DNA of 64,000 nucleotides from Anaerorhabdus furcosa (GTDB taxonomy: Bacteria > Bacillota_I > Bacilli_A > Erysipelotrichales > Erysipelotrichaceae): positions 186,001 to 250,000 of the forward strand of contig NZ_FUWY01000001.1 in the NCBI RefSeq assembly GCF_900167375.1. The letters run 5' to 3'. Position numbers and translations under genes: made by a program. Positions 1 to 10,806 of the stretch are shown piece by piece (the first letter of the stretch is position 1; each line of letters begins with the position of its first letter). Under the pieces are notes generated by a model. It ran no database searches and was not told the DNA's origin. It worked only from the letters and a program-made list of their open reading frames with translations.

Positions 1-99
1 TTTAAATAATTAATTCATCTTTAAGCACATTAAATTACTGTCTATTTATAACACTCAATCATTTGATAGTGTGATACCATTAATGTAGAGGTGAAAGCT

Positions 100-1299
100 A
101 TGGAAAATTATGGGGTTGCATTAGGAGTGCTTGTTAAACGCGAAAGACTAAAAAACAATTTAACAGCGCAACAACTAGCAAAAAAAGTAAATTTTTCAAG
201 AAGCTATATTTCTAGAATTGAAAACGGAGTTTTAGTAGATGATTCAATCTACAAAAAGATAATGGCTTATTTTCATTTGCCTTATTATGGTATTAGTGAA
301 TGCCAAGCACATGAAAATAAACTTGATTATGCTTATTTAGACTTCATATATATAAAAGATAAAAAGAAGAATATTTCAGAATTACTCTTTCAACTAGCTG
401 ATTACAAGTATTCTCCACTATTCGCTAAATACATGATTATACAACTTATTTATTATGTTACTTACCCCGAAGAAAACCAACAAGAAAAAGAAACATTCTT
501 AGCTGAAATATTATCACTAGTTCATTCCTTTTCACCAAATCATCAACAGATTATTTATGATTATTTAGGATTTGATTTTATGTACAGTAATGTATCAAAA
601 GCAAAAATATATTTTGATAAAGCAATCGCTTGTGGAGTATTCAATGAGTCGACGAGTATGTTATACTACCATATTAGTGTCTTTCAATATCGTTGTAATC
701 ATTTATGTTTAGCATTCTCATTCTCCACGAAAGCTTTCAATCAGTTTAGCACTGAATTAAATTATAAAAGACTATTCTATACTAAATTTCATATTGCTAA
801 CATCTTCATGCTTGATCAAGCTTACGATAAAGCAATAGGAATGTATAAAAAATTGATAGATAATGATGCAGTAGAAGATAAGTCAATTGTATTTTCAAAT
901 CTCTCTTGGGCATACTACAGCATTAAAGAATACGATAAGGCAAAACTTATGATTTCAAAATGTACACATAAAAGATTTAGTTATTACTTCAATTCAATCT
1001 TAATTAACGCGGCTCTAAAGAATACTTCTGATGCCTTATCACTAATTAATGAGTTTTTGAAAAAATCAAACAATAATATAGAAAGGCAAATTATTTTCAT
1101 ATTAAAGTGCAAGATAACAAGTCAATATTCAGACGATTTTGAACAACTACTAATCACCAGCTATAAACAAGCAAAGAATTCATTTGATATTACAATTGTC
1201 TCACTTTTAAATTCGTACTTGGTTGATTACTTTATTTTAAATCGCGAATATAAGCAAGCTAATTATTATTTAAGAGAATTATTTAATTCTAAGTTATAA
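100..1299 (+). CDS. Rgg/PlcR-like XRE regulator with TPR-type C-terminal domain
   Basis: The N-terminal ~65 residues form an XRE helix-turn-helix (GVLVKRERLKNNLTAQQLA ... SRSYISRIENG). The remaining ~330 residues are Tyr/Phe/Lys-rich helical repeats like the TPR domain of Rgg/MutR/PlcR (RRNPP) regulators. In that family the TPR domain binds a secreted oligopeptide and the HTH binds promoter DNA. A GTG at 91 lies inside the Shine-Dalgarno stretch; ATG at 100 has AGAGGTG six bases upstream and is taken as the start (399 aa). A hairpin terminator follows directly. Downstream on the same strand are a possible tiny peptide gene, a secreted cysteine peptidase and a lipoprotein, which are natural candidates for its targets. 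Family assignment is fairly sure; peptide binding is inferred from the architecture. Confidence 0.8.
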   Translation: MENYGVALGVLVKRERLKNNLTAQQLAKKVNFSRSYISRIENGVLVDDSIYKKIMAYFHLPYYGISECQAHENKLDYAYLDFIYIKDKKKNISELLFQLADYKYSPLFAKYMIIQLIYYVTYPEENQQEKETFLAEILSLVHSFSPNHQQIIYDYLGFDFMYSNVSKAKIYFDKAIACGVFNESTSMLYYHISVFQYRCNHLCLAFSFSTKAFNQFSTELNYKRLFYTKFHIANIFMLDQAYDKAIGMYKKLIDNDAVEDKSIVFSNLSWAYYSIKEYDKAKLMISKCTHKRFSYYFNSILINAALKNTSDALSLINEFLKKSNNNIERQIIFILKCKITSQYSDDFEQLLITSYKQAKNSFDITIVSLLNSYLVDYFILNREYKQANYYLRELFNSKL

Positions 1300-1304
1300 A
1301 TTCC

Positions 1305-1340
1305 CATAACAAAAGGTCGCTTAAGTGACCTTTTGTTATG
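1305..1340 (+). terminator. Terminator hairpin after the Rgg-like gene
   Basis: The 36-base segment is an almost perfect palindrome (CATAACAAAAGGTCGC, then TTAA, then GTGACCTTTTGTTATG; one G-T pair). It starts a few bases after the stop codon. The T-rich run lies within the descending arm, so it could stop transcription or act as a processing/operator site. Confidence 0.6.
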
Positions 1341-1419
1341 CTCACTCTAAAACATTTTTCACTTGAAATATAGTTTATAATTTAATTATAAGTACTAACA
1401 AGAAAGGTGGTTGATTCGC

Positions 1420-1476
1420 TTGCCAAACAGGTATGAGAATGGAGATAATTCAATAATCATTAATATGCTTAATTAA
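1420..1476 (+). CDS. Candidate 18-codon peptide gene (TTG start)
   Basis: A strong Shine-Dalgarno (AGAAAGGTGG, 1401-1410) has no long ORF at the right distance. Nine bases after it a TTG opens an 18-codon frame, read as M/L-PNRYENGDNSIIINMLN and ending in TAA at 1474. The peptide is polar with a short hydrophobic C-terminal stretch and has no obvious signal peptide, unlike streptococcal SHP pheromones. It sits between an Rgg/PlcR-type regulator and a secreted peptidase, the usual place for a signalling peptide gene. It could equally be a translated leader of the 1497 gene or chance. Low confidence, recorded because the ribosome site is otherwise unexplained. Confidence 0.25.
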   Translation: MPNRYENGDNSIIINMLN

Positions 1477-1496
1477 AATAGAAAAGGAGAAATGAA

Positions 1497-2282
1497 ATGA
1501 AAAAAATTTTGATTGGCATTGTTACTTGTTGTTTGTTTGCTATCTCATTTAGTGGCAATGTATTTGCACTTGATGGAACTGGCGAAGATCCTGGTTTTAC
1601 ACCAAATGATCCACCTGGTACAAACGTGCCTGACGATTTCACCATAGACACAACTTATCGTGTTGAACCAAGACCTTCAAATCTACCATACACATTCACT
1701 GAACATCATTTATCACGTGGATATATAGTAGATTCACGTTGGACCACTGATGGTCTTTCATACTATAAACAAGGTGATTATCCTAATAATTATTATGGGG
1801 CAGATAACTGCTCTGATAGTATTGCTACAAGTGGATGTGCTTTGACAGCTTTAGCTTCTGTAGTAAGTCGCTATGGAAAATATTACAATCCACCTGAACT
1901 AAATATATTTTTAGGTAAAGGAGCATTCAACGGATGTTTATTAAACTGGATTACTGCTGCTAATCGCTTAAGTTTGTCATATCAAAAAGATGACTTTGCA
2001 CCAAATTATTATGAAAGTACTGCTAAACTTAAAATGCAAGAAAGGGTACAAAAAGGTTACTCACCGATTGTGTCTCTTAAATGTGTTTCTGGACATGAAG
2101 CAAATTGTGAAGCACTAACTCACTTCGTTGTTAACTATGGTTACGAAATGTATTGGAACGATGATGGAACTGGATATACTACTTATTACTATCTACACAA
2201 TCCTGGTGGTGCAAATAAAAATGAGATAAACCAGTACATGGATCACTATTATATAGTATCTTTACATAACTACGGAAACTAA
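1497..2282 (+). CDS. Secreted C39-like (papain-fold) peptidase family protein
   Basis: 261 residues. An N-terminal signal peptide (MKKILIGIVTCC ... VFA, cleavage near residue 24) is followed by an acidic/Pro-rich linker to about residue 60. A domain resembling Peptidase_C39_2 then has Cys114 in SGCALTALASVVSRYG, His209 in THFVVNYGY and Asn235 in LHNPGG, spaced like a Cys-His-Asn/Asp triad. Extra Cys (105, 147, 196, 204) could form disulfides. A GGAGAAATG-type ribosome site precedes ATG 1497. The stop overlaps the next start by one base, so it is co-translated with the lipoprotein. Fold call is fairly good; catalytic activity and substrate are unknown. It could process a peptide or cleave surface proteins. 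Confidence 0.65.
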   Translation: MKKILIGIVTCCLFAISFSGNVFALDGTGEDPGFTPNDPPGTNVPDDFTIDTTYRVEPRPSNLPYTFTEHHLSRGYIVDSRWTTDGLSYYKQGDYPNNYYGADNCSDSIATSGCALTALASVVSRYGKYYNPPELNIFLGKGAFNGCLLNWITAANRLSLSYQKDDFAPNYYESTAKLKMQERVQKGYSPIVSLKCVSGHEANCEALTHFVVNYGYEMYWNDDGTGYTTYYYLHNPGGANKNEINQYMDHYYIVSLHNYGN

Positions 2283-2809
2283 TGAAAAAGTATATCTATT
2301 TTATAGTATGTCTATTACTCCTTTCTGGGTGTTCTACTTCAAGTGAGCCCACTGTTGTATCGTCAACCGCTCCAACATTAATGTCTAGTACAGAACCGTC
2401 TATTGACCCAACAAATATACCAGAAGAAGTTGTAAGCGATATAGATTTAACCTTATACAAAGAAGAATCTCTATTTGAAGGGAAACTACATTATTATGTT
2501 AAAGATCCGCTACCTGAAGATATTATTGTTGTATTCAATCCTGCACTAAACACCGAAACTAAGGGAACCGTAGCAAGAATACTAGTTTATACAGAAAAGC
2601 CATTTTCGATATGGATTGAAGATTATTGGATAGTTACAAATAAAATTGAAGGATCAGATATCATTTATGAAGAAAATGGATACTATGTTATGGAACATAA
2701 TCTCGTGGATTTTTATGACTACGATATTTTTGACTCTGACGAAGAAAAATCTATTGCATCAGAAATAAAAGAGAAGTATACAGGAACTGTAATATTCACT
2801 AATAAATAA
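2282..2809 (+). CDS. Small lipoprotein of unknown function
   Basis: 175 residues with a classic lipoprotein signal: MKKYIYFIVCLLLLSGC, lipobox LLSGC with Cys at residue 17. A Ser/Thr/Pro-rich spacer (to about residue 55) leads to an acidic globular part rich in Asp, Glu, Tyr and Ile. No family is recognised. Its ATG overlaps the TAA of the C39-like gene by one base (TAATG), so the two are translationally coupled and probably act together on the cell surface. A strong terminator follows. Confidence 0.7.
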   Translation: MKKYIYFIVCLLLLSGCSTSSEPTVVSSTAPTLMSSTEPSIDPTNIPEEVVSDIDLTLYKEESLFEGKLHYYVKDPLPEDIIVVFNPALNTETKGTVARILVYTEKPFSIWIEDYWIVTNKIEGSDIIYEENGYYVMEHNLVDFYDYDIFDSDEEKSIASEIKEKYTGTVIFTNK

Positions 2810-2817
2810 GTATTGAT

Positions 2818-2876
2818 GCTGTTACGAAATAGATGATTGAGATCAATCATCTATAAGCGTAATAGCTTCTTTTTTT
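2818..2876 (+). terminator. Rho-independent terminator after the C39/lipoprotein pair
   Basis: A nested stem: inner TAGATGATTGA/TCAATCATCTA (2830-2853) and outer GCTGTTACG/CGTAATAGC (2818-2826 with 2858-2866, one G-T pair). It is followed by TTCTTTTTTT. It ends the operon that begins near 1497. Confidence 0.85.
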
Positions 2877-2902
2877 ATATCTCTCACTCTTATATCTTTT
2901 GC

Positions 2903-2967
2903 TTTTTATTTCAAATCAATAATTATCGATTTGCTGTATAACAAAAGGGTATTTCTAACATATTGTA
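2903..2967 (+). repeat. Left att-like repeat (attL candidate)
   Basis: Two blocks match the right end at 10,595-10,710. Block A (2903-2924, 22 bases) is identical to 10,595-10,616. Block B (2928-2967, 40 bases) matches 10,671-10,710 with 5 mismatches and includes an exact 18-base run, TATTTCTAACATATTGTA. The blocks are 3 bases apart here and 54 apart at the right end. Block B at the right end forms one arm of the tRNA-operon terminator. This is the pattern left by site-specific integration into a tRNA 3' flank. Confidence 0.7.
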
Positions 2968-3097
2968 TAATCATTTGTTTTTCTCAAATAAAATCACTCT
3001 AAACTATTAATTTATCACATATTTGTTATTTTCATGAATAATCAGTTAATATATATGTATGTATATATAACAATATGACTGAAAGGGTGGTTTTATT

Positions 3098-3784
3098 ATG
3101 TCAGTAACAATTTGTATAATTGACGACAAAGACAATGATCTTAAAAATATTCGAAATGAGATCACGCAACATTGTACTGACTATTTTGATCCTATTATTA
3201 AATTGGTAAACTCAGTAGATAATCTATCAATGATTACTGATTCAGATGTTTATTTCATTGATATAGATTTACCAAAGTATAATGGATTTGAAATAGCTAA
3301 ATTCATTCTTCAAAAAAATGAAAATAAATTCATCATATTTGTTTCAAATCGAGAAGACTTGGTATTTAACTCATTCGATTTAAATGTATTTTATTTTGTT
3401 AGAAAATCACATCTAGCAAATGATATTGAAAGATGTATCTCAAAGTATTTGCAGACAGTACAAAAATCAAACTACATAATTTTAAATTGTAATCACAATA
3501 CATATCAAATAAATCATAATGAAATCATCTGGATAGAATCAAATGGCAACAATCTATCTATTTACATGCCAAGCTATAATCTAATAGTAAGAAAAACGAT
3601 GAAATCTATTATAAATGAATTAAATAATAAAATTTTCATTAGAATACATCACTCTTACTTGGTAAATAGTGAATATATACATTATGTTCACCAAAATACT
3701 TGCCATCTAAAAAATGGCTTAATACTACCAATTAGCCCCAACCACAAATTAGACCTAAATGTTTTCTTTTCGTCAAGGAGGTAA
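3098..3784 (+). CDS. LytTR-family response regulator (AgrA/ComE-like)
   Basis: 228 residues. Receiver domain at 1-120 with acidic pair Asp9/Asp10 (CIIDD) and phospho-acceptor Asp55 in VYFIDIDLP; a Lys in FVRKSHL closes the site. The LytTR DNA-binding domain spans about 125-225 (IIWIESNGNNLSIY ... FIRIHHSYLVN). ATG 3098 has AAAGGGTGG upstream. The kinase gene begins 5 bases after its stop and its ribosome site lies inside this gene's last codons. This is the arrangement of Agr/Com/Bln-type peptide-sensing systems that control bacteriocins or virulence. Targets probably include the two small secreted-protein genes just downstream; that is inferred from position. Confidence 0.9.
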   Translation: MSVTICIIDDKDNDLKNIRNEITQHCTDYFDPIIKLVNSVDNLSMITDSDVYFIDIDLPKYNGFEIAKFILQKNENKFIIFVSNREDLVFNSFDLNVFYFVRKSHLANDIERCISKYLQTVQKSNYIILNCNHNTYQINHNEIIWIESNGNNLSIYMPSYNLIVRKTMKSIINELNNKIFIRIHHSYLVNSEYIHYVHQNTCHLKNGLILPISPNHKLDLNVFFSSRR

Positions 3785-3789
3785 CATAC

Positions 3790-5028
3790 ATGAACTATAT
3801 AATTGACACCACGATTTATTTATCATTTTTATTTATAATGTTCCGAAAGAAAGATAAAACACATTTAACAATTAGTATTTTATTTTCACTTATATTTTTA
3901 GCATTTCTATTCAAGATTAGCATTTTTGAACTTAATTTTAAAAATGTTACATTTATTATATTAATATACGCAATTATTATAAATTTATCTGATGAAAGTG
4001 ATTTTGAAATTTTTTATACTATGGTTCTATACTTGGTTTTAGGAAACTTAATGAGCCAAATAGTTACTTATTCTTATTACAATTTACAAACCACTTACAA
4101 AAACTTATTGATTTACTTGTTAAATAATTATGCAAATATTTTTATTATTAGTCGCATTTTTATTCTTTTGACTTATCTATTATTAGCACACTTTAGAAAT
4201 AAACATAAAATTAAATTTAGTCTATTAGAGATTTTACCACTATTGATTATAAGTGGAACTTTGCTATTTATATGTGTCTTGCTTTCTAAAATGCTTTTTG
4301 GCCAATGGATTTTAAGTATAGATATACTCATTATAGATATTTTTATTTTATTAATTGTTATTATTGTTAATATTCTATATCATTATTTAGTTCAACATAA
4401 AGAACGAATAAATGAAGTTGAATTCGAAAAAATTATTTTACAAAATAAAATCATTACTCAAAAAAGAATTTGTGAACTTAATGATGAAATAATCCATTTT
4501 AGACATGATATAAAACATTCATTTCGCTATATTGAAGATTTACTACAGATTGGTGATATTTCTACAGCACTAAGTATTGTTAAGAAACAGCATGAACTTC
4601 CTGTTTTAAACTCACATTATGTTATTACTCAATGTCCTCTATTTGACCTGATTATTAATGATTATAAAGATAAGTCAATAGTTGAAAAATTTGATTTTAA
4701 AACGACTGCAAACATTACTTCTGACGTTAATATTGATGCACTTAAATTCAATTCAATACTTTGTAATTGTCTTGATAACGCTTTTGAAAATTGTGGCGTA
4801 GAAGGTTTTATTGAATTATCTGCTGTTATCAATGATTCTTCAATTAATATCAACATAACAAATAGTATTGCAAAAAATATTTTTCCTATTCAAAAAGATA
4901 AAAAATTTCACGGCAAAGGAATTAACAATATTCGTTCCAATATAAATTCATTAAATGGCAATTTTAATATTATATTAGATTCTTTAGCATATACATCAAT
5001 ATCTATTCCTAATTATCCCTCAAAGTAG
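3790..5028 (+). CDS. GHKL-type sensor histidine kinase (AgrC-like)
   Basis: 412 residues. About seven hydrophobic segments fill residues 1-205, as in AgrC/ComD receptors that bind extracellular peptides. A coiled region precedes the H-box, with the phospho-acceptor at His239 in FRHDIKH. The N-box is NSILCNCLDNAFENC around Asn326/Asn330, and the G-box is HGKGINNIRSNI near residue 375. No AgrB/AgrD pair is visible in the window, so the ligand is unknown. Ribosome site AAGGAGGT lies in the end of the response regulator gene. The gene is extremely AT-rich, more so than the mobilization genes to the right. Confidence 0.9.
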   Translation: MNYIIDTTIYLSFLFIMFRKKDKTHLTISILFSLIFLAFLFKISIFELNFKNVTFIILIYAIIINLSDESDFEIFYTMVLYLVLGNLMSQIVTYSYYNLQTTYKNLLIYLLNNYANIFIISRIFILLTYLLLAHFRNKHKIKFSLLEILPLLIISGTLLFICVLLSKMLFGQWILSIDILIIDIFILLIVIIVNILYHYLVQHKERINEVEFEKIILQNKIITQKRICELNDEIIHFRHDIKHSFRYIEDLLQIGDISTALSIVKKQHELPVLNSHYVITQCPLFDLIINDYKDKSIVEKFDFKTTANITSDVNIDALKFNSILCNCLDNAFENCGVEGFIELSAVINDSSININITNSIAKNIFPIQKDKKFHGKGINNIRSNINSLNGNFNIILDSLAYTSISIPNYPSK

Positions 5029-5095
5029 ATAACTTATCACACTTTTATACTTTTATATTTTAACGATATACAATCTAAGTAGAGGAGGTATACAG

Positions 5096-5620
5096 ATGAA
5101 ACGTATTTATTTATTACTTGCAATAGCATTATTTGGATTTGGTGTATTTAACGAAAAGGAAATCACCATTGATCCCAATATAAATCAGAATCAAATAGCA
5201 ACAGGAATTACTTCTTTAAATTATAACGATAATCTCGCCTATAATATTGATAATTCTGTGCTCGCTGAGATAAAACTTGAATTTCCTTATTATTGCAGCC
5301 AGCCCACTTATTTCAAAGAGGTAAATAATGGTAACTTTTCAGATATTCCTGGACTAATTACAATTAGAATTAATTTGTATACGAAAATTGGTGTACAAAA
5401 TGAGTCCATTGAGTTGAGGGAATATGTCCTTTTAAAAAAAGATAATATCTTTAGTTTTGATTCTTTAGTAGGTTATCAAAAAATAGATGAAATTGCTGAC
5501 TATAGTATATTTATATCTAACAGTTATTTAGACGAGTTAGCAATACCTGAAAATTTTTCTCTTGAAGAAATTAGAGCCACTCTTGATCAATCAATTTCAT
5601 TTTACAAAATTTCCGAATAA
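5096..5620 (+). CDS. Secreted or membrane-tethered protein, unknown function
   Basis: 174 residues. The N-terminus (MKRIYLLLAIALFGFGVF) is a signal peptide or anchor without a lipobox. The rest is acidic and rich in Asn, Ile and Tyr, with repeated beta-like stretches. I do not recognise a family. AGAGGAGGT is placed ideally before ATG 5096. It follows the kinase by 67 bases and precedes another small secreted gene. It could be an immunity/accessory protein or a regulated exported product; nothing in the sequence decides this. Confidence 0.6.
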   Translation: MKRIYLLLAIALFGFGVFNEKEITIDPNINQNQIATGITSLNYNDNLAYNIDNSVLAEIKLEFPYYCSQPTYFKEVNNGNFSDIPGLITIRINLYTKIGVQNESIELREYVLLKKDNIFSFDSLVGYQKIDEIADYSIFISNSYLDELAIPENFSLEEIRATLDQSISFYKISE

Positions 5621-5682
5621 TTTTCTAACATATAGAATTGCTTGCCACAAAAATTAAAATTATTAGTTATGGAGGTATTCTT

Positions 5683-5979
5683 ATGAAAAAGAAAACAATA
5701 ATTTTAGCAATTTCATTATTCTACATCTTTACATCTGGTTTTTCAACTTTAGCGGAAAGCAGTCAAGAGGCTAGAGTTCCAATTTATTATAATTACAAGA
5801 ATTCATTCTGCTATGCTGGATCAACTGCTCCTGATCTTGTTTCTATACATAATTACTATATTTCCGGTGTATATTGGTCTGGTGCTGTTTATAAAGGCGA
5901 CTGGGTTAGTTCATATACACAAGGGAATGTAACATACAATTGTTATATGTATGCAGGAGAGCTTCATTCAAACTCTTAG
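5683..5979 (+). CDS. Small secreted two-cysteine protein (bacteriocin-like candidate)
   Basis: 98 residues starting at ATG 5683, which has GGAGGT at 5671-5676; an upstream in-frame ATT/TTG extension has no ribosome site. The signal peptide MKKKTIILAISL ... STLA should be cut near residue 24. The mature ~74 residues are very rich in aromatic residues (Tyr, Trp) and Gly/Ser, with exactly two Cys (43 and 87) that could form a disulfide. Size, composition and position behind a LytTR/GHKL system resemble small secreted peptides controlled by such systems, including non-lantibiotic bacteriocins. No double-glycine leader or ABC exporter is nearby. Function is unproven. Confidence 0.55.
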   Translation: MKKKTIILAISLFYIFTSGFSTLAESSQEARVPIYYNYKNSFCYAGSTAPDLVSIHNYYISGVYWSGAVYKGDWVSSYTQGNVTYNCYMYAGELHSNS

Positions 5980-6025
5980 TTAGAATCACAATGTAAATTC
6001 ATAGCAATTCTATATGTATATTATT

Positions 6026-6070
6026 GACAAGTAAGTTAAAGACAATTCAAATACTTACTTGTCTTTTTTG
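6026..6070 (+). terminator. Terminator after the small secreted genes
   Basis: An 11-base perfect stem (GACAAGTAAGT at 6026-6036 with ACTTACTTGTC at 6053-6063) is followed by six T. It ends the plus-strand cargo operon and separates it from the minus-strand mobilization genes. Confidence 0.9.
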
Positions 6071-6168
6071 TCTAAATATATTGTATAAATCTACACTTTT
6101 TATTAATTTCCAAGTATCATCTCAAATGATTTCAAATCTATAATAAAGGATAATACGTACTTTTTCAA

Positions 6169-7464
6169 TTAACCAAGTTTTTGCTCTTTCATCTTTTGCT
6201 TATATTTATTCTTTCTTTCATGTTTTCCACTATATTTTCTCTTATTAATTACTACATTCGAGTCAAGTTGCACACCAACATCAATAAGACCAGTAATTGC
6301 GCCGATAGTAAGCACCACACCCACTTCATGATTTGTTTTAACTTCATTTGTTCTTTGTTTTCTATCAACTGGAACGAAGTATTCATCTGATTTTTCATCG
6401 CTAATGTTAAACTCTCTTGTTTGCTCATAATTTGATTCATAGTGATAATTGCTTCCTCCATCTGCGTATTTGTAACAATTTGCATCAGATCCTCTGACAT
6501 CAGTTCGATTAATTGGTTTTGTTTGCCAAAGTTTTCTAAACTCATCTCTCGATAATCCGATACCGCTTTCAACAACTGATTGAATTCGCTCTTGCTCAGA
6601 GATACAGCGTAAGGCGTTTTCTCGATTACTTGCTTTAACTGTGGCAGGTACATTTTCATTTGTTCCAAAGTCAGTGGTGTTTCTACTATGTTCTTCTCTT
6701 TCAATTCTTCTAAACTCAAACTCATAATCTAATACCTCTTTTAAGTATTTCCTTTCATGTAATTTATTATCTCTACATTTCATTCCGTTTGGACACGTAT
6801 AGGTAATATATTTATAGTTATCATTATATTTAACTGTATAACCACTTTTTTGCATCTTATCAATAAATTCATTTTTGCTTTGCGCTTCATTCATGCATCT
6901 ATCAATTGCATTCATTAGTTTGAACTTCCAGCTCATCCCTTTTTCAGCAGCTCGATATTCTCGTGGTGACAGCCCCTTCTCTTTGTGAAGTTGGATGGGT
7001 TGTTGAATGCCATACTCGAGGGCTATTCGATCTGATACACGTCTCAACTCTTTTAACGTATGTTTGTTTTGATGGAGCTTGATTCCTGTTTCCATATTTA
7101 CACTATTAATCACAAAGTGATTATGCACATGTTCTCGATCCACATGGGTTGATACAACAACTTCATAGTTGGGATAGAATTCTTGTACCAACTTACAACC
7201 TATCTCATGAACTTGAGAAGGAGTAAGATTTACTCCTTTCTCAAATGACTGAATGGTCATGTAGAATCGAACTCCTGTATCTTTACCATGCATTAGTCGT
7301 GTTCTCTTGAACTCCTGCTGGGCAGTACTCGGATGGCAGTTAATTCCTGTTACTAAATTCCTTCCCTCGTGCATTGACTTTTTCTTTTGCGTACAATACT
7401 TCAGTACTACTCCTACAGCGCTCTCTGTTTGTTTTGATTCACGGATGTATTCTACAATGGGCAT
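6169..7464 (-). CDS. MOBP-type relaxase (mobilization nuclease)
   Basis: 431 residues. The N-terminal ~250 residues are a relaxase/mobilization nuclease domain. The metal-binding histidine motif is His107-x-Asp-xx-His112-x-His114-x-His116 (HVDREHVHNHFVIN), and Tyr23 in LKYCTQKKKS is a likely nicking tyrosine. It would nick oriT and lead the strand in transfer. The C-terminal ~180 residues are polar and less conserved-looking, and in that stretch a second gene (6252-6725) overlaps in another frame. ATG 7464 directly follows the TAA of the MobC-like gene. The 3' end has no clear terminator. Confidence 0.9.
   Translation of the reverse strand: MPIVEYIRESKQTESAVGVVLKYCTQKKKSMHEGRNLVTGINCHPSTAQQEFKRTRLMHGKDTGVRFYMTIQSFEKGVNLTPSQVHEIGCKLVQEFYPNYEVVVSTHVDREHVHNHFVINSVNMETGIKLHQNKHTLKELRRVSDRIALEYGIQQPIQLHKEKGLSPREYRAAEKGMSWKFKLMNAIDRCMNEAQSKNEFIDKMQKSGYTVKYNDNYKYITYTCPNGMKCRDNKLHERKYLKEVLDYEFEFRRIEREEHSRNTTDFGTNENVPATVKASNRENALRCISEQERIQSVVESGIGLSRDEFRKLWQTKPINRTDVRGSDANCYKYADGGSNYHYESNYEQTREFNISDEKSDEYFVPVDRKQRTNEVKTNHEVGVVLTIGAITGLIDVGVQLDSNVVINKRKYSGKHERKNKYKQKMKEQKLG
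6252..6725 (-). CDS. Overlapping MobB-like coiled-coil protein with C-terminal membrane anchor
   Basis: 157 residues read inside the relaxase gene in a different frame. Support for it being real: AAGAGGT eight bases before its ATG, a length well beyond chance in this position, and a coherent protein. It has a Leu/Glu/Gln-rich helical body (MSLSLEELKEKN ... ) with probable coiled coil at about 60-130, and one hydrophobic segment at 133-152 (WVWCLLSAQLLVLLMLVCNL) near the C-terminus. In the ColE1 and RSF1010 mobilization systems, accessory mob genes (mbeB/mobB) also lie wholly inside the relaxase gene, and RSF1010 MobB has a membrane segment. Homology is not claimed; the analogy is architectural. 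Confidence 0.65.
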   Translation of the reverse strand: MSLSLEELKEKNIVETPLTLEQMKMYLPQLKQVIEKTPYAVSLSKSEFNQLLKAVSDYREMSLENFGKQNQLIELMSEDLMQIVTNTQMEEAIITMNQIMSKQESLTLAMKNQMNTSFQLIENKEQMKLKQIMKWVWCLLSAQLLVLLMLVCNLTRM

Positions 7465-7770
7465 TTAGTGTATTCTTTCTTGTAAAGCCACTAAGGTTTC
7501 CAGACACTTGTTCAATGCACTCTGTGTCTCTTGAAGATTCACTACCTCAACTTTATTCATGTTCGCTAGTACTGTTAATTGATTCACGTTATTTCCAATT
7601 TTTTTTAGTTGGATATACGTTTCTTTCAAGTCATCTATTCGAATAACTTTTTTATTCAAACATGATCGTACAATGAAGTCTGTTTTCGTGAGTCCTGCTT
7701 CACATGATAGGTCACAAATCTTTTCAAAGTCTGATTCTGTTGTTTTAAATACTGTTACTTTATTTTTCAT
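7465..7770 (-). CDS. MobC-like relaxosome accessory protein
   Basis: 101 residues. An N-terminal ribbon-helix-helix-like part (KVTVFKTTESDFEKICDLSCEAGLTKTDFIVRSCL) precedes the motif KKIGNNVNQLTVLAN (residues 57-70), typical of MobC proteins that bind oriT and help the relaxase. Stop TAA abuts the relaxase ATG. Directly upstream is a GC-rich, inverted-repeat region that is the best oriT candidate. Good confidence from motif and context. Confidence 0.85.
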   Translation of the reverse strand: MKNKVTVFKTTESDFEKICDLSCEAGLTKTDFIVRSCLNKKVIRIDDLKETYIQLKKIGNNVNQLTVLANMNKVEVVNLQETQSALNKCLETLVALQERIH

Positions 7771-7789
7771 CTTTCCTCTTTCCTATTTT

Positions 7790-7872
7790 TACAGGGGCAC
7801 GGGGAACCCCCGTACTCAAGACTGCGCCGGCGTATAGCCGAGTGCTATGCTTGCCCTTCCAAATGGAAGGTT
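7790..7872. other. Putative oriT
   Basis: This stretch upstream of mobC is far richer in G+C than its surroundings and holds several small inverted repeats: ACGGGG-AAC-CCCCGT (7799-7813), GCGTATAGC/GCTATGC (about 7830-7850), and CCTTCC-AAAT-GGAAGG (7855-7870). Between the last two is CTTGCCCTT, loosely like nic regions of MOBP systems. Position and structure suggest the relaxase/MobC target; the nick position is not determined. Confidence 0.45.
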
Positions 7873-7984
7873 CTTTTAATACTTTAAGGTTAATTGTCTC
7901 AAATAAATTATTTTCTTGAACTAGCCCCTTTTTAGCCCAACACGGCGTCGTTGTTGACGATGGTGACGACGATTAGGGGTATCC

Positions 7985-9580
7985 CTATTCCATCGGCGCA
8001 TCGGCGCCACTGTCGTCCACGAGCGTTAGTTCCAACCACCTTTTCTTTCCTCTACCTTTGCTGAACACAATGTTATTCTTTCGTAATATTTCCACATTTT
8101 TACTTAGTAATGTTGATAATTGATTGGGATAAATCACTAAACCTATTCTGCTACACAACTCATTGGCTGTGTCATTAAACTTCTTTTCTTTGGATATATA
8201 GTTGATTACTTTCGCAATATTTACATCCAAACTTTCATCTTGTTCTTCATCGTAAGCTTCCCATAGAAGTCTCTCATTTTGCTTAATTGTGATACTTCTC
8301 ATCGGAATACTTTTACCTGTTATCATCAACTCTGCTGTATCACTCATGATATTTTCACGATACAGTACCATCATATTATCGGCAGCTGCAGGGATACCAT
8401 TGGTTCCATAGAAGGCTTCAAATGGACTATTCTTTCTGCAATCTTTGACTAAGTGATGAAGCAAGATAATAGCGATATTATTCTCTACTGCAAGCTCTCT
8501 GATTTCGCTTGTTTGTTTATAATCATCTTGGTAGTTTGCTTTTTCATTACTTGAATCTCTTAACTTACCATAGGTATCCACAAAAACTGCGATGAGATTT
8601 GGATATCCTTCCTTCCATTCTTGGATGCACTTATCGAGATGGAAGTAATTCCCTTTTGACCCTATTCTGAATTGAATATCGATATTCTTATCAATACCAA
8701 ATAGATTGAATCGTTCGTCAATATCTTTTTTCATTTTACCTTTAATTTGTTCCCACATTCTTTTGTAAGATTGTGCTGATATTGGTTTTCTATCATCTAC
8801 GTTAGTAAATAGATTTTCCATCGGACATTTCGCTAAAGTTTTCTTTAAGTAATCAACATCTCCATTTTGCATTGGTAATTTTCTCATTGATGATTTTGAT
8901 TTTGTACCTTTTTCTTTGCCTTGATTTTGTGTGAATTCAATTGATTTATTTATACTAATCATCATTGCATTAAAGTTGAAATCTGATTTTTTAAGAGCTA
9001 GAATTTCTCCTTTTCTTAATCCATAATGCCATGCAAGTGTTATGAACAATTTCTCTCTTAATGTCAGAATTATTGAGTTCAATATTTTAATCTCATTAGA
9101 AGTTAATACTCTTTTTTCATTCTTTACTACACTTGGTTTTGGAATAAAATCACATGGATTTACTTTCACAATATTGAGTCGATGTGCTTCTTTGAAGATT
9201 GAATTTAAAGTCATATGTACTTTTTGAGACTGATTAGGATGATTTTTAAGTTCATTCATAATTGCGTTAATATGGGACATGTTGATCTTTTTCATTTGCA
9301 AATCATTGAGTGGCTCACAATGATTTAGTGTTGTTGCATACATTCTTTTAGTATTAGCACTTTTGGTTATCATATTTCTTTCATACCACTGTTTTGAATA
9401 ATCTTTAAACAAAGTTTTATCTGTAAAACATCCAGAGACTTTTGCCTCGAGAACTCTTTTATTGAGTTCTCTTGTATTGTTAGCACATATGTATCTTCTT
9501 TCACTTTTTCCTGTGATAGGATTGAATACTAGAATTGTTGTAGCATATCGACCGTCTGCTCTTTGTTTTCTAGATAACAT
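7985..9580 (-). pseudogene. Chimeric ORF: tyrosine-recombinase N-half fused to RepA-like ATPase C-half
   Basis: 531 codons in one frame, but made of parts of two proteins. Residues 1-~275 match a phage/ICE tyrosine recombinase: AP2-like arm-binding region, SAM-like core-binding domain (TKRMYATTLNHCEPL ... ), then the start of the catalytic domain with Arg189 (HYGLRKGEIL). The expected HxxR box and tyrosine nucleophile never appear. From about 290 onward it resembles the C-terminal part of a RepA/AAA_25 RecA-fold ATPase: LIAVFVDTYGKLRD (Walker B, Asp335), IAIILLHHLVKD and ADNMMVLYR, followed by a winged-helix-like tail. The Walker A half is absent. An in-frame deletion between adjacent int and rep genes (near 8,710-8,750) explains this. 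Recombinase activity is not expected; the ATPase part is also incomplete. Confidence 0.75.
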
Positions 9581-9582
9581 TC

Positions 9583-9792
9583 TTAATAATAATCCTCATC
9601 ATGGATATCAAAGAAGTCTTCATAATACTTCCTGAATATCATTCCACTTTTAGGTAACTGGGAATCATTCAAGTTATACTTTTTCTTGATTTCTCGATAC
9701 TTGCGAGCTGACTGTGTGTAACTAATATCTAGTTCTTCAGCCATCTCAGCAATACTAATAGTTAATTTCTTTTGTTCGTTTGATTTGCTCAT
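9583..9792 (-). CDS. Small HTH protein, excisionase-like
   Basis: 69 residues from ATG 9792, which has GAGAGG seven bases upstream; a longer 79-residue reading from 9822 lacks a ribosome site. LTISIAEMAEELDISYTQSARKYREIKKKYNL looks like a helix-turn-helix of the Xis/MerR-like type, with a basic N-terminus and an acidic C-terminal tail. The stop lies two bases before the recombinase start, so it is co-transcribed with it. In integrative elements such a gene usually encodes the recombination directionality factor or a repressor. The role is inferred from size and position. Confidence 0.6.
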   Translation of the reverse strand: MSKSNEQKKLTISIAEMAEELDISYTQSARKYREIKKKYNLNDSQLPKSGMIFRKYYEDFFDIHDEDYY

Positions 9793-9860
9793 TTCTCTTC
9801 CTCTCTTTCTTTTGAAAGACATTTATGAGATAATATAAATGCCTTGGGAGCAATCCCTGC

Positions 9861-9899
9861 AGGAAGTCGTCCGTCGAAAGTTGGCTTCCTTTTATTTTT
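9861..9899 (+). terminator. Hairpin with T-tract upstream of the int/xis genes
   Basis: AGGAAGTC (9861-9868) pairs with GGCTTCCT (9883-9890, one G-T pair) and is followed by TTTATTTTT on the plus strand. It lies between the two divergent transcription units of the element. It may stop plus-strand transcription or be part of a leader/antisense control RNA for the minus-strand operon. Confidence 0.45.
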
Positions 9900-9906
9900 G
9901 TATCGC

Positions 9907-10012
9907 TATCCGTGTATTTCGGACATACAATACAATCGTAATATATCCTATTTTATCGGATATGTCAAATATTTTTATTTTTCTTTACATGTACGACTTT
10001 GTCGGATATTAT
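9907..10012 (+). promoter_or_regulatory. XRE gene promoter with CGGATAT operator cluster
   Basis: A good promoter, TTTACA (9984-9989), 17-base spacer, TATTAT (10,007-10,012), sits just before the XRE gene. Dyads built on ATATCCG/CGGATAT recur: TATCCG...CGGACA (9907-9925), ATATCC...GGATAT (9943-9963) and CGGATAT (10,003-10,009) touching the -10. A related pair, ATATCCG...CGGACGTAT, lies near the right end (10,636-10,660). These are likely binding sites of the XRE regulator, controlling itself and the divergent xis/int operon. Confidence 0.55.
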
Positions 10013-10031
10013 TATTTAAGAGGTGATAGTA

Positions 10032-10508
10032 ATGAAATCAGAGAAACAAATCGAAAAAGAAGTTAAAGACTCTTCGATTCAAATTGGCGAGCGAATTAAA
10101 CTCGCAAGACTGCACTATGGTTATACAAAAACTCAGCTAGCAGATCAATTAGGTATTTCTTATAAAAGAATCATCGAATATGAAAACGGTCAATTTAAGC
10201 CTAGAGAAACAACACTAAGAAAAATAGCTAATGTTCTTTCAGTCAACTACTTTTGGTTGACTTCTGGTGCCCTTATTTTCGAACCAGCATGGTTTAGCAC
10301 AAAAACAAGTGATAAAGATACTAAAAACAAGTTGCGAGCTGGAGCATTAGGAATTATTAATCAGATGTCGAGTAAAATGCCCGATCACATTGTCTTTCAA
10401 ATTTCAGATATTATCTTATCTGAAATAAGGAAGCAAATGGATGAGAAGAATGAATCTCAAAATAATGTTCAACTAAACAAACCTAAAATTTCTAAGAAAC
10501 TAAAATAA
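10032..10508 (+). CDS. XRE-family repressor of the integrated element
   Basis: 158 residues from ATG 10,032, with AAGAGG eight bases upstream (the GTG at 10,023 lies inside that site). Residues ~20-80 form the HTH (GERIKLARLHYGYTKTQLADQLGISYKRIIEYENGQ), followed by a short linker and a helical C-terminal segment with a basic end. It is divergent from the xis/int operon and has CGGATAT-type dyads at its own promoter, as for CI/ImmR-like control genes. No metallopeptidase (ImmA) partner is visible. Confidence 0.85.
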   Translation: MKSEKQIEKEVKDSSIQIGERIKLARLHYGYTKTQLADQLGISYKRIIEYENGQFKPRETTLRKIANVLSVNYFWLTSGALIFEPAWFSTKTSDKDTKNKLRAGALGIINQMSSKMPDHIVFQISDIILSEIRKQMDEKNESQNNVQLNKPKISKKLK

Positions 10509-10594
10509 AGGCTCATATATTGAAGTCATCTTTGCCAATAATGGAAATGAATTTTACTTGTTTGCCAATATTTTTGCCAATAATCAATTTGTAT

Positions 10595-10710
10595 TTTTTA
10601 TTTCAAATCAATAATTTTATTCATAAACATCATATTATATCCGAATTTTACGGACGTATACAGAATCGCCGATTTACCGCATTACAAAAGGCTATTTCTA
10701 ACATATTGTA
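10595..10710 (+). repeat. Right att-like repeat (attR candidate)
   Basis: Contains the 22-base block 10,595-10,616 and the 40-base block 10,671-10,710 that recur at 2903-2967. The 54 bases between the blocks are unique to this end and include an ATATCCG...CGGACGTAT dyad. The core overlaps the terminator hairpin of the tRNA operon, whose other arm (TAGAAATAGCC) lies outside the repeat. Confidence 0.7.
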
Positions 10711-10723
10711 GAAATAGCCTTAT
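10687..10723 (-). terminator. Terminator of the Asn-Glu-Lys tRNA operon
   Basis: AAGGCTATTTCTA (10,688-10,700) pairs with TAGAAATAGCCTT (10,709-10,721). Read on the minus strand, downstream of tRNA-Lys, the stem is followed by TTTTGT. The integrated element has replaced or supplied sequence up to this hairpin. Confidence 0.8.
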
Positions 10724-10730
10724 TTTTTAA

Positions 10731-10806
10731 TGGTGACTCCTTGGGGGATCGAACCCCAGACCCACTGATTAAGAGTCAGTTGCTCTACCATCTGAGCTAA
10801 GGAGTC
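10731..10806 (-). tRNA. tRNA-Lys(CTT)
   Basis: 76 bases with encoded CCA. Acceptor GACTCCT/AGGAGTC, D-arm TAGCTCAG...GGTAGAGC, anticodon loop CTCTTAA (anticodon CTT), T-arm GGTTCGATCC. It is the last gene of the tRNA operon, and the element lies 3' of it. Confidence 0.97.

Follow-up and report, generated by a model that had tools for sequence, protein, structure and literature searches.

Probable serial insertion at a tRNA-Lys gene of Anaerorhabdus furcosa, with a likely right-end relic inside the newest mobilizable unit

A tRNA-Lys (CTT) gene of Anaerorhabdus furcosa borders a mobile unit of about 11.2 kb in the stretch of 64,000 nucleotides analyzed here (the window; contig NZ_FUWY01000001.1, C2:186001-250000 in our numbering of an assembly in 11 contigs; unprefixed positions are those of the window). 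The gene (10731-10806, minus strand, ARAGORN) is the last of an Asn-Glu-Lys tRNA cluster. On balance, we favor with moderate confidence that elements inserted serially at this gene, that the 11.2-kb unit is the newest of them, and that a short segment inside it, at 2903-2967, was left behind by accretion followed by deletion.

The segment at 2903-2967 (plus strand) matches 10595-10710 (plus strand), which belongs to the current right end of the unit. Bases 2903-2924 and 10595-10616 are identical at 22 of 22 positions, in the same order and strand as the neighboring pair of blocks, in which the 27-mers 2941-2967 and 10684-10710 agree at 26 bases with a single mismatch; the copy at 10.6-10.7 kb is the longer one, by 51 additional bases. 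An earlier note on this DNA had given these coordinates, the mismatch and the length difference, and all of them hold exactly. BLASTN inside the window returns the 22-bp block (100%, E 1e-5) and a match of 41 bp (2927-2967 with 10670-10710, 88%, E 6e-8), with 5 of the 41 bases differing, and the gapped local alignment of both regions reaches a score of 99.8, attained by 0 of 1000 dinucleotide shuffles (maximum 67.2). Moreover, a 111-bp query around 2903-2967 finds only itself and the 10.6-10.7 kb copy in the whole genome, so the block is not a scattered repeat.

At 10.7 kb, the copy, described in the earlier note as one arm of the terminator 3' of tRNA-Lys, forms the distal (3') arm together with the loop of that hairpin (-16.5 kcal/mol, z -5.15, equalled by 0 of 200 shuffles). 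This terminator of the tRNA cluster (10688-10721, minus strand) consists mostly of element-borne sequence. No hairpin forms from the copy at 2.9 kb (z 0.49 on one strand and 0.64 on the other); that copy comprises the 22-bp block and the 41-bp block, which ends in the terminator loop, and it lacks the tRNA part. Its surroundings resemble neither end of the unit: the sequence preceding 2903 is not similar to that preceding 10595 (405 of 500 shuffles do as well), and the sequence following 2967 is similar neither to the tRNA side (386 of 500) nor to the left end of the element (157 of 500). Because of these unrelated flanks, 2903-2967 is most likely a 65-bp relic of a right end and does not border a second element that can be recognized. 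In the earlier note, the DNA left of 2903 had been taken for the right end of a related element.

Reuse of a regulatory sequence in front of the two-component operon, perhaps as a binding site of the LytTR regulator or of a repressor, would also account for two copies; in its favor, 2912-2933 is a near-perfect palindrome and a 12-mer of the shared segment, TTTCTAACATAT, recurs at 5622, upstream of a small peptide gene. However, the palindrome is interrupted by the 51 bases in the other copy, the match runs on into terminator-arm sequence, which would be unexpected for an operator, and the 12-mer match is, by our own estimate, within chance for AT-rich DNA; we regard this explanation as very improbable. 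A LytTR binding site as the cause of the repeat was rejected, the 12-mer being the only match.

The ends of the resident unit lie elsewhere. A perfect repeat of 57 bp occurs at 10719-10775 (minus strand) and at C2:185505-185561, the latter 440-496 bases left of the window, and each copy spans the tRNA-Lys sequence from the anticodon loop to 12 bp past its 3' end. The unit between the tRNA copies measures 11,214 bp with one copy included; it starts at C2:185562, and its portion inside the window is 1-10718. Three putative integrase arm-type sites, TTGCCAATA, stand at 10532, 10562 and 10574 (10532-10582, plus strand), and an arm-like site at C2:185611, TTGCCAATAAT, lies 50 bp inside the left end; the motif has no other occurrence in the 104 kb examined. 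The closest integrases, from genomes G090, G110 and G094 (36-43% identity), are also encoded beside tRNA-Lys (CTT), and three arm-like sites, 30-33 and 11-12 bp apart, are present in four of the four elements compared (TTTGACAAC-like in these three genomes), the spacing being 30 and 12 bp here versus 32-33 and 11 there. In addition, a 50-bp, 100% repeat of the tRNA-Lys 3' end flanks the G094 element, whose two ends both bear arm-like sites, those of the left end about 50-60 bp inside it, comparable to the element here. As related integrases beside tRNA-Lys share such site arrays and G094 has the same kind of repeat, the outer tRNA copies are taken as the attachment pair of the resident element.

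This bears on the view, held in the earlier note, that the 27-base block is the attachment core. A 7.7-kb element (2968-10710) would then have inserted in the terminator loop, beside the right end of a neighbor left of 2903, and indeed 26 of the 27 bases are common to both copies and the right copy terminates in that loop. Nonetheless, the repeat in the tRNA is longer and perfect, related elements use the tRNA, and arm sites accompany only the outer pair: no arm-like site is found near 2903-2967 on either side, the segment holds no tRNA core, and its flanks are unlike element ends. The 27-base block is highly unlikely to be the core. A repeat within the window can thus pass for attachment sites if the actual left end falls just beyond its border.

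Left of the window, the site carries traces of older events. A scar at C2:185484-185561 comprises 45 bp of tRNA and a terminator (C2:185484-185506), left of the left tRNA copy, that differs from the current terminator of the cluster; a C-terminal remnant of an integrase, in two frames, lies to the left of it. Farther out, the scar at C2:183868-183915 consists of a decayed terminator and about 15 bp of tRNA, with 81% identity over 48 bp to the next scar, and the similarity between the scars runs on leftwards for about 130 alignment columns. The terminator now serving the cluster is unlike those of both scars. Fragments of an Abi_2 gene and an HTH_38-domain protein sit between the scars. Also, a 552-residue HATPase-domain protein (L004:15838-17496, C2:181838-183496) adjoins the outermost scar and is possibly cargo of a still older insertion. 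Together with the intact site, the two scars give this tRNA gene several att-type junctions, as in tandem accretion. Repeated insertion is supported, because two older scars, each with its own terminator, stand left of the element, so that at least three junctions occur at this tRNA. The proposal of serial insertion at one hotspot thus finds support, and so does that of a terminator rebuilt each time, a different terminator being present at each junction.

Comparable arrangements are found in other genomes. For example, G131 and G090, from another genus, each have a tRNA-Lys scar whose outer side adjoins another right end of this element family, one that lacks arm sites (these tandem right ends and scars lie at L187:16231-16515, G090:C18, and L186:6155-10105, G131:C77). 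In a related genus, 5 of 70 genomes (seven places, query included) have a long match that runs on from the tRNA end, most others sharing the tRNA end only, which indicates that the right-end and terminator region is element-borne there. In G094 and G167, the sequence beyond the distal copy is similar to the right end (0 of 500 shuffles each); at the left copy of the present genome the same comparison is not significant (140 of 500), and the terminators differ there. Outer arms in common are then frequent at this site and fit tandem insertion, with the inner junction eroded here. When the right-end DNA was compared with 272 genomes of the family, only short AT-rich matches appeared outside the own genome (in 17 other genomes), and these are taken as chance.

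Based on these observations, the following history is proposed. The tRNA-Lys (CTT) gene would be a site-specific insertion hotspot, where elements with tyrosine integrases recombined repeatedly within the 3' half of the tRNA, every insertion delivering a replacement 3' end with its own terminator and shifting older junctions leftwards. The newest unit would be the 11.2-kb integrative and mobilizable element (IME), with 57-bp tRNA copies and arm-type sites at its edges. Within it, 2903-2967 would be the remnant of the right end of a related element, from an earlier tandem insertion of two related elements: a deletion on one side would have taken the arm sites and the integrase of the older element, another on the other side the tRNA fragment and the left end of the newer one, and these deletions would have joined two cargo sets into one composite unit.

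A single element whose own right-end segment was copied once into its interior, by ectopic duplication or templated insertion, would need no second element. The sharing is limited to a 65-bp piece with unrelated flanks, and in G235 the same regulator-C39 cargo, in a stretch devoid of tRNA genes, stands by a similar lipoprotein and a small peptide, so that the two cargo sets may belong together. On the other hand, differences at 5 of 41 bases and the 51-base gap imply an old copy, yet the outer tRNA copies are identical, and tandem right ends do occur at tRNA-Lys in G090 and G131. Such self-copying seems rather unlikely to us, if less so than the other two alternatives.

Several points weigh against serial insertion with an accretion-deletion relic. 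The relic lacks a tRNA fragment, in contrast to those of G090 and G131, and as both of its flanks are also unlike element ends, two separate deletions must be assumed. The flanks of scars 1 and 2 are only modestly similar (a score reached by 2 of 500 shuffles). With four occurrences, TTGCCAATA is no more frequent than in shuffled sequence (mean 2.0, maximum 5, 60 shuffles), so only its placement is informative. Finally, neither a close relative of the element nor an empty site in a near relative was found. The host flank genes (DUF308 protein, BrnQ, YbaK, LysR, HATPase gene, DUF454 and YgbA) were not beside the tRNA cluster at 37 loci of other genomes, and the ABC protein of the right flank occurs at 35 loci in named genomes, 16 of which were scanned for tRNAs with tRNA-Lys in none. 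Genome and viral contigs held no close relative of the relaxase, and viral contigs none of the integrase fusion; identity is at most about 34% for plasmid relaxases (best 20 of 1544 matching records) and 23-30% for phage integrases (best 8 of 114 records), and a PDB search gave one weak match.

The integrase gene itself (7985-9580, minus strand) is altered. According to protein alignments, it is an in-frame fusion of a tyrosine integrase (residues 1 to about 290) with the C-terminal part of a Rep-like ATPase: of its 531 residues, 4-302 align with an integrase of 361 residues from G090 and 283-519 with residues 320-562, in the C-terminal part, of a 569-residue Rep protein from G245. Missing are the catalytic C-terminus of the integrase, where the second arginine box and the tyrosine reside, and the GKT motif of Rep (residues 285-311 in four Reps). 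Among 272 family genomes, 24 have a match at E <= 1e-20, and both halves are matched only by the own protein. As the integrase has no catalytic C-terminus, the element can probably no longer excise on its own; its ends, which look intact, might be used by another integrase. The related integrase of G094 (L074, G094:C45, from 9237 on) also lacks the catalytic C-terminus, and the ends of that element look intact.

Upstream of the integrase gene, 9583-9822 (minus strand) encodes a small putative Xis-like protein, a function suggested by position and conservation (proteins 43-51% identical adjoin the integrase gene upstream in G090, G110 and G094), and 10023-10508 (plus strand) a candidate repressor of the Xre/DicA-like helix-turn-helix (HTH) type (Pfam HTH_19/HTH_3; NCBIfam below cut-offs). 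A MobC/NikA-like mobilization protein (7465-7770) and a MobA/VirD2-type relaxase (6169-7464) are both encoded on the minus strand. The cargo on the plus strand comprises, at 3098-5979, a LytTR response regulator, a GHKL histidine kinase, a secreted-type protein and a small secreted-type peptide, the last two without family, and, at 91-2809, an HTH regulator (Rgg-like by eye), a protein of C39-like peptidase fold (below the Pfam cut-off) and a lipoprotein. The first set is an Agr-like regulator and kinase with two small secreted-type genes and no AgrB-like open reading frame (ORF) in this region; in the tRNA-Lys region of G167 (L086:12949-15486), a related pair follows an ORF that is AgrB-like by eye. 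The second set recurs in G235 and G216 (L153, L155), in stretches without a tRNA gene, and a very strong hairpin terminator (2815-2880, -26.7 kcal/mol, z -6.85) follows the lipoprotein gene here and adjoins the relic on its left.

Like an IME, the unit has a relaxase and MobC by Pfam scan and is bounded by 57-bp, 100% attL/attR repeats, and Pfam scans of its larger ORFs within the window detected no gene for conjugation. However, since its integrase is truncated, ending before the catalytic C-terminus, its sequence would make it at most a decayed IME.

In Streptococcus agalactiae, a composite with IME_Sag2603_tRNAlys is arranged as a decayed integrative and conjugative element (ICE), a chimeric attI, the IME and the 3' end of tRNA-Lys (PMC5704250). 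It shares with the locus here the tRNA-Lys 3' end as target, a tyrosine integrase, a decayed tandem neighbor and outer att sites that bound the whole; in the present case, only 65 bp of the inner junction remain, with no tRNA core among them, and a truncated integrase is encoded. A three-step accretion of IMEs and cis-mobilizable elements (CIMEs) has been described (PMC5704250), and accretion followed by module deletion probably accounts for much module replacement (PMC5357655). The CIME or tandem accretion model of ICESt1-related elements (Pavlovic 2004 and Bellanger 2011, as cited in PMC5704250 and PMC5357655) resembles our proposal in the site-specific stacking of related elements, with later deletions that yield composites. 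A CIME is defined by absent integration and transfer genes and retained attL and attR (PMC5704250), whereas the inner relic here has no core: the 3.4 kb from C2:185562 to position 2967 lack any recognized gene for integration or transfer, yet they lack an attR core as well, and no inner att core or arm sites separate units at 2903-2967. As for ICEKp1, its insertion at tRNA-Asn displaces the terminator, moving it to the far end of the element (PMC13023037), whereas the newest element here brings its own terminator beside the tRNA and has a divergent repressor gene between the tRNA and int. Among literature entries combining any two of Erysipelotrichaceae, integrative and mobilizable, and tRNA-Lys, the entry descriptions make no mention of this locus. 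Accretion at tRNA-Lys genes is already published, and the locus is a new, heavily eroded member.

The 51 bases absent from the relic contain a candidate operator, ATCCGN7CGGA (ATCCGAATTTTACGGA, 10639-10654, plus strand). The pattern ATCC[G/T]N7CGGA occurs three times in the 104 kb (at 10639, 9908 and 9945; shuffle mean 0.22, maximum 2), and the occurrences at 9908 and 9945 fall in the divergent promoter region that separates the repressor gene from xis/int; a repressor operator at the right end would be a reasonable guess. A more far-reaching idea, that the tRNA-Lys family carries by attP a portable terminator plus a right-end operator for its own repressor, with the relic as an ancestral operator-less end, is doubtful. 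If true, insertion would keep the tRNA operon insulated, and the repressor could mark or control the end of the element.

In the history favored here, one tRNA gene would hold a fossil series, from an intact junction through a scar with 45 bp of tRNA and a decayed scar with about 15 bp to an inner relic with none. The locus would thus exemplify how cargo sets may end up in a single mobile unit when deletions follow accretion.

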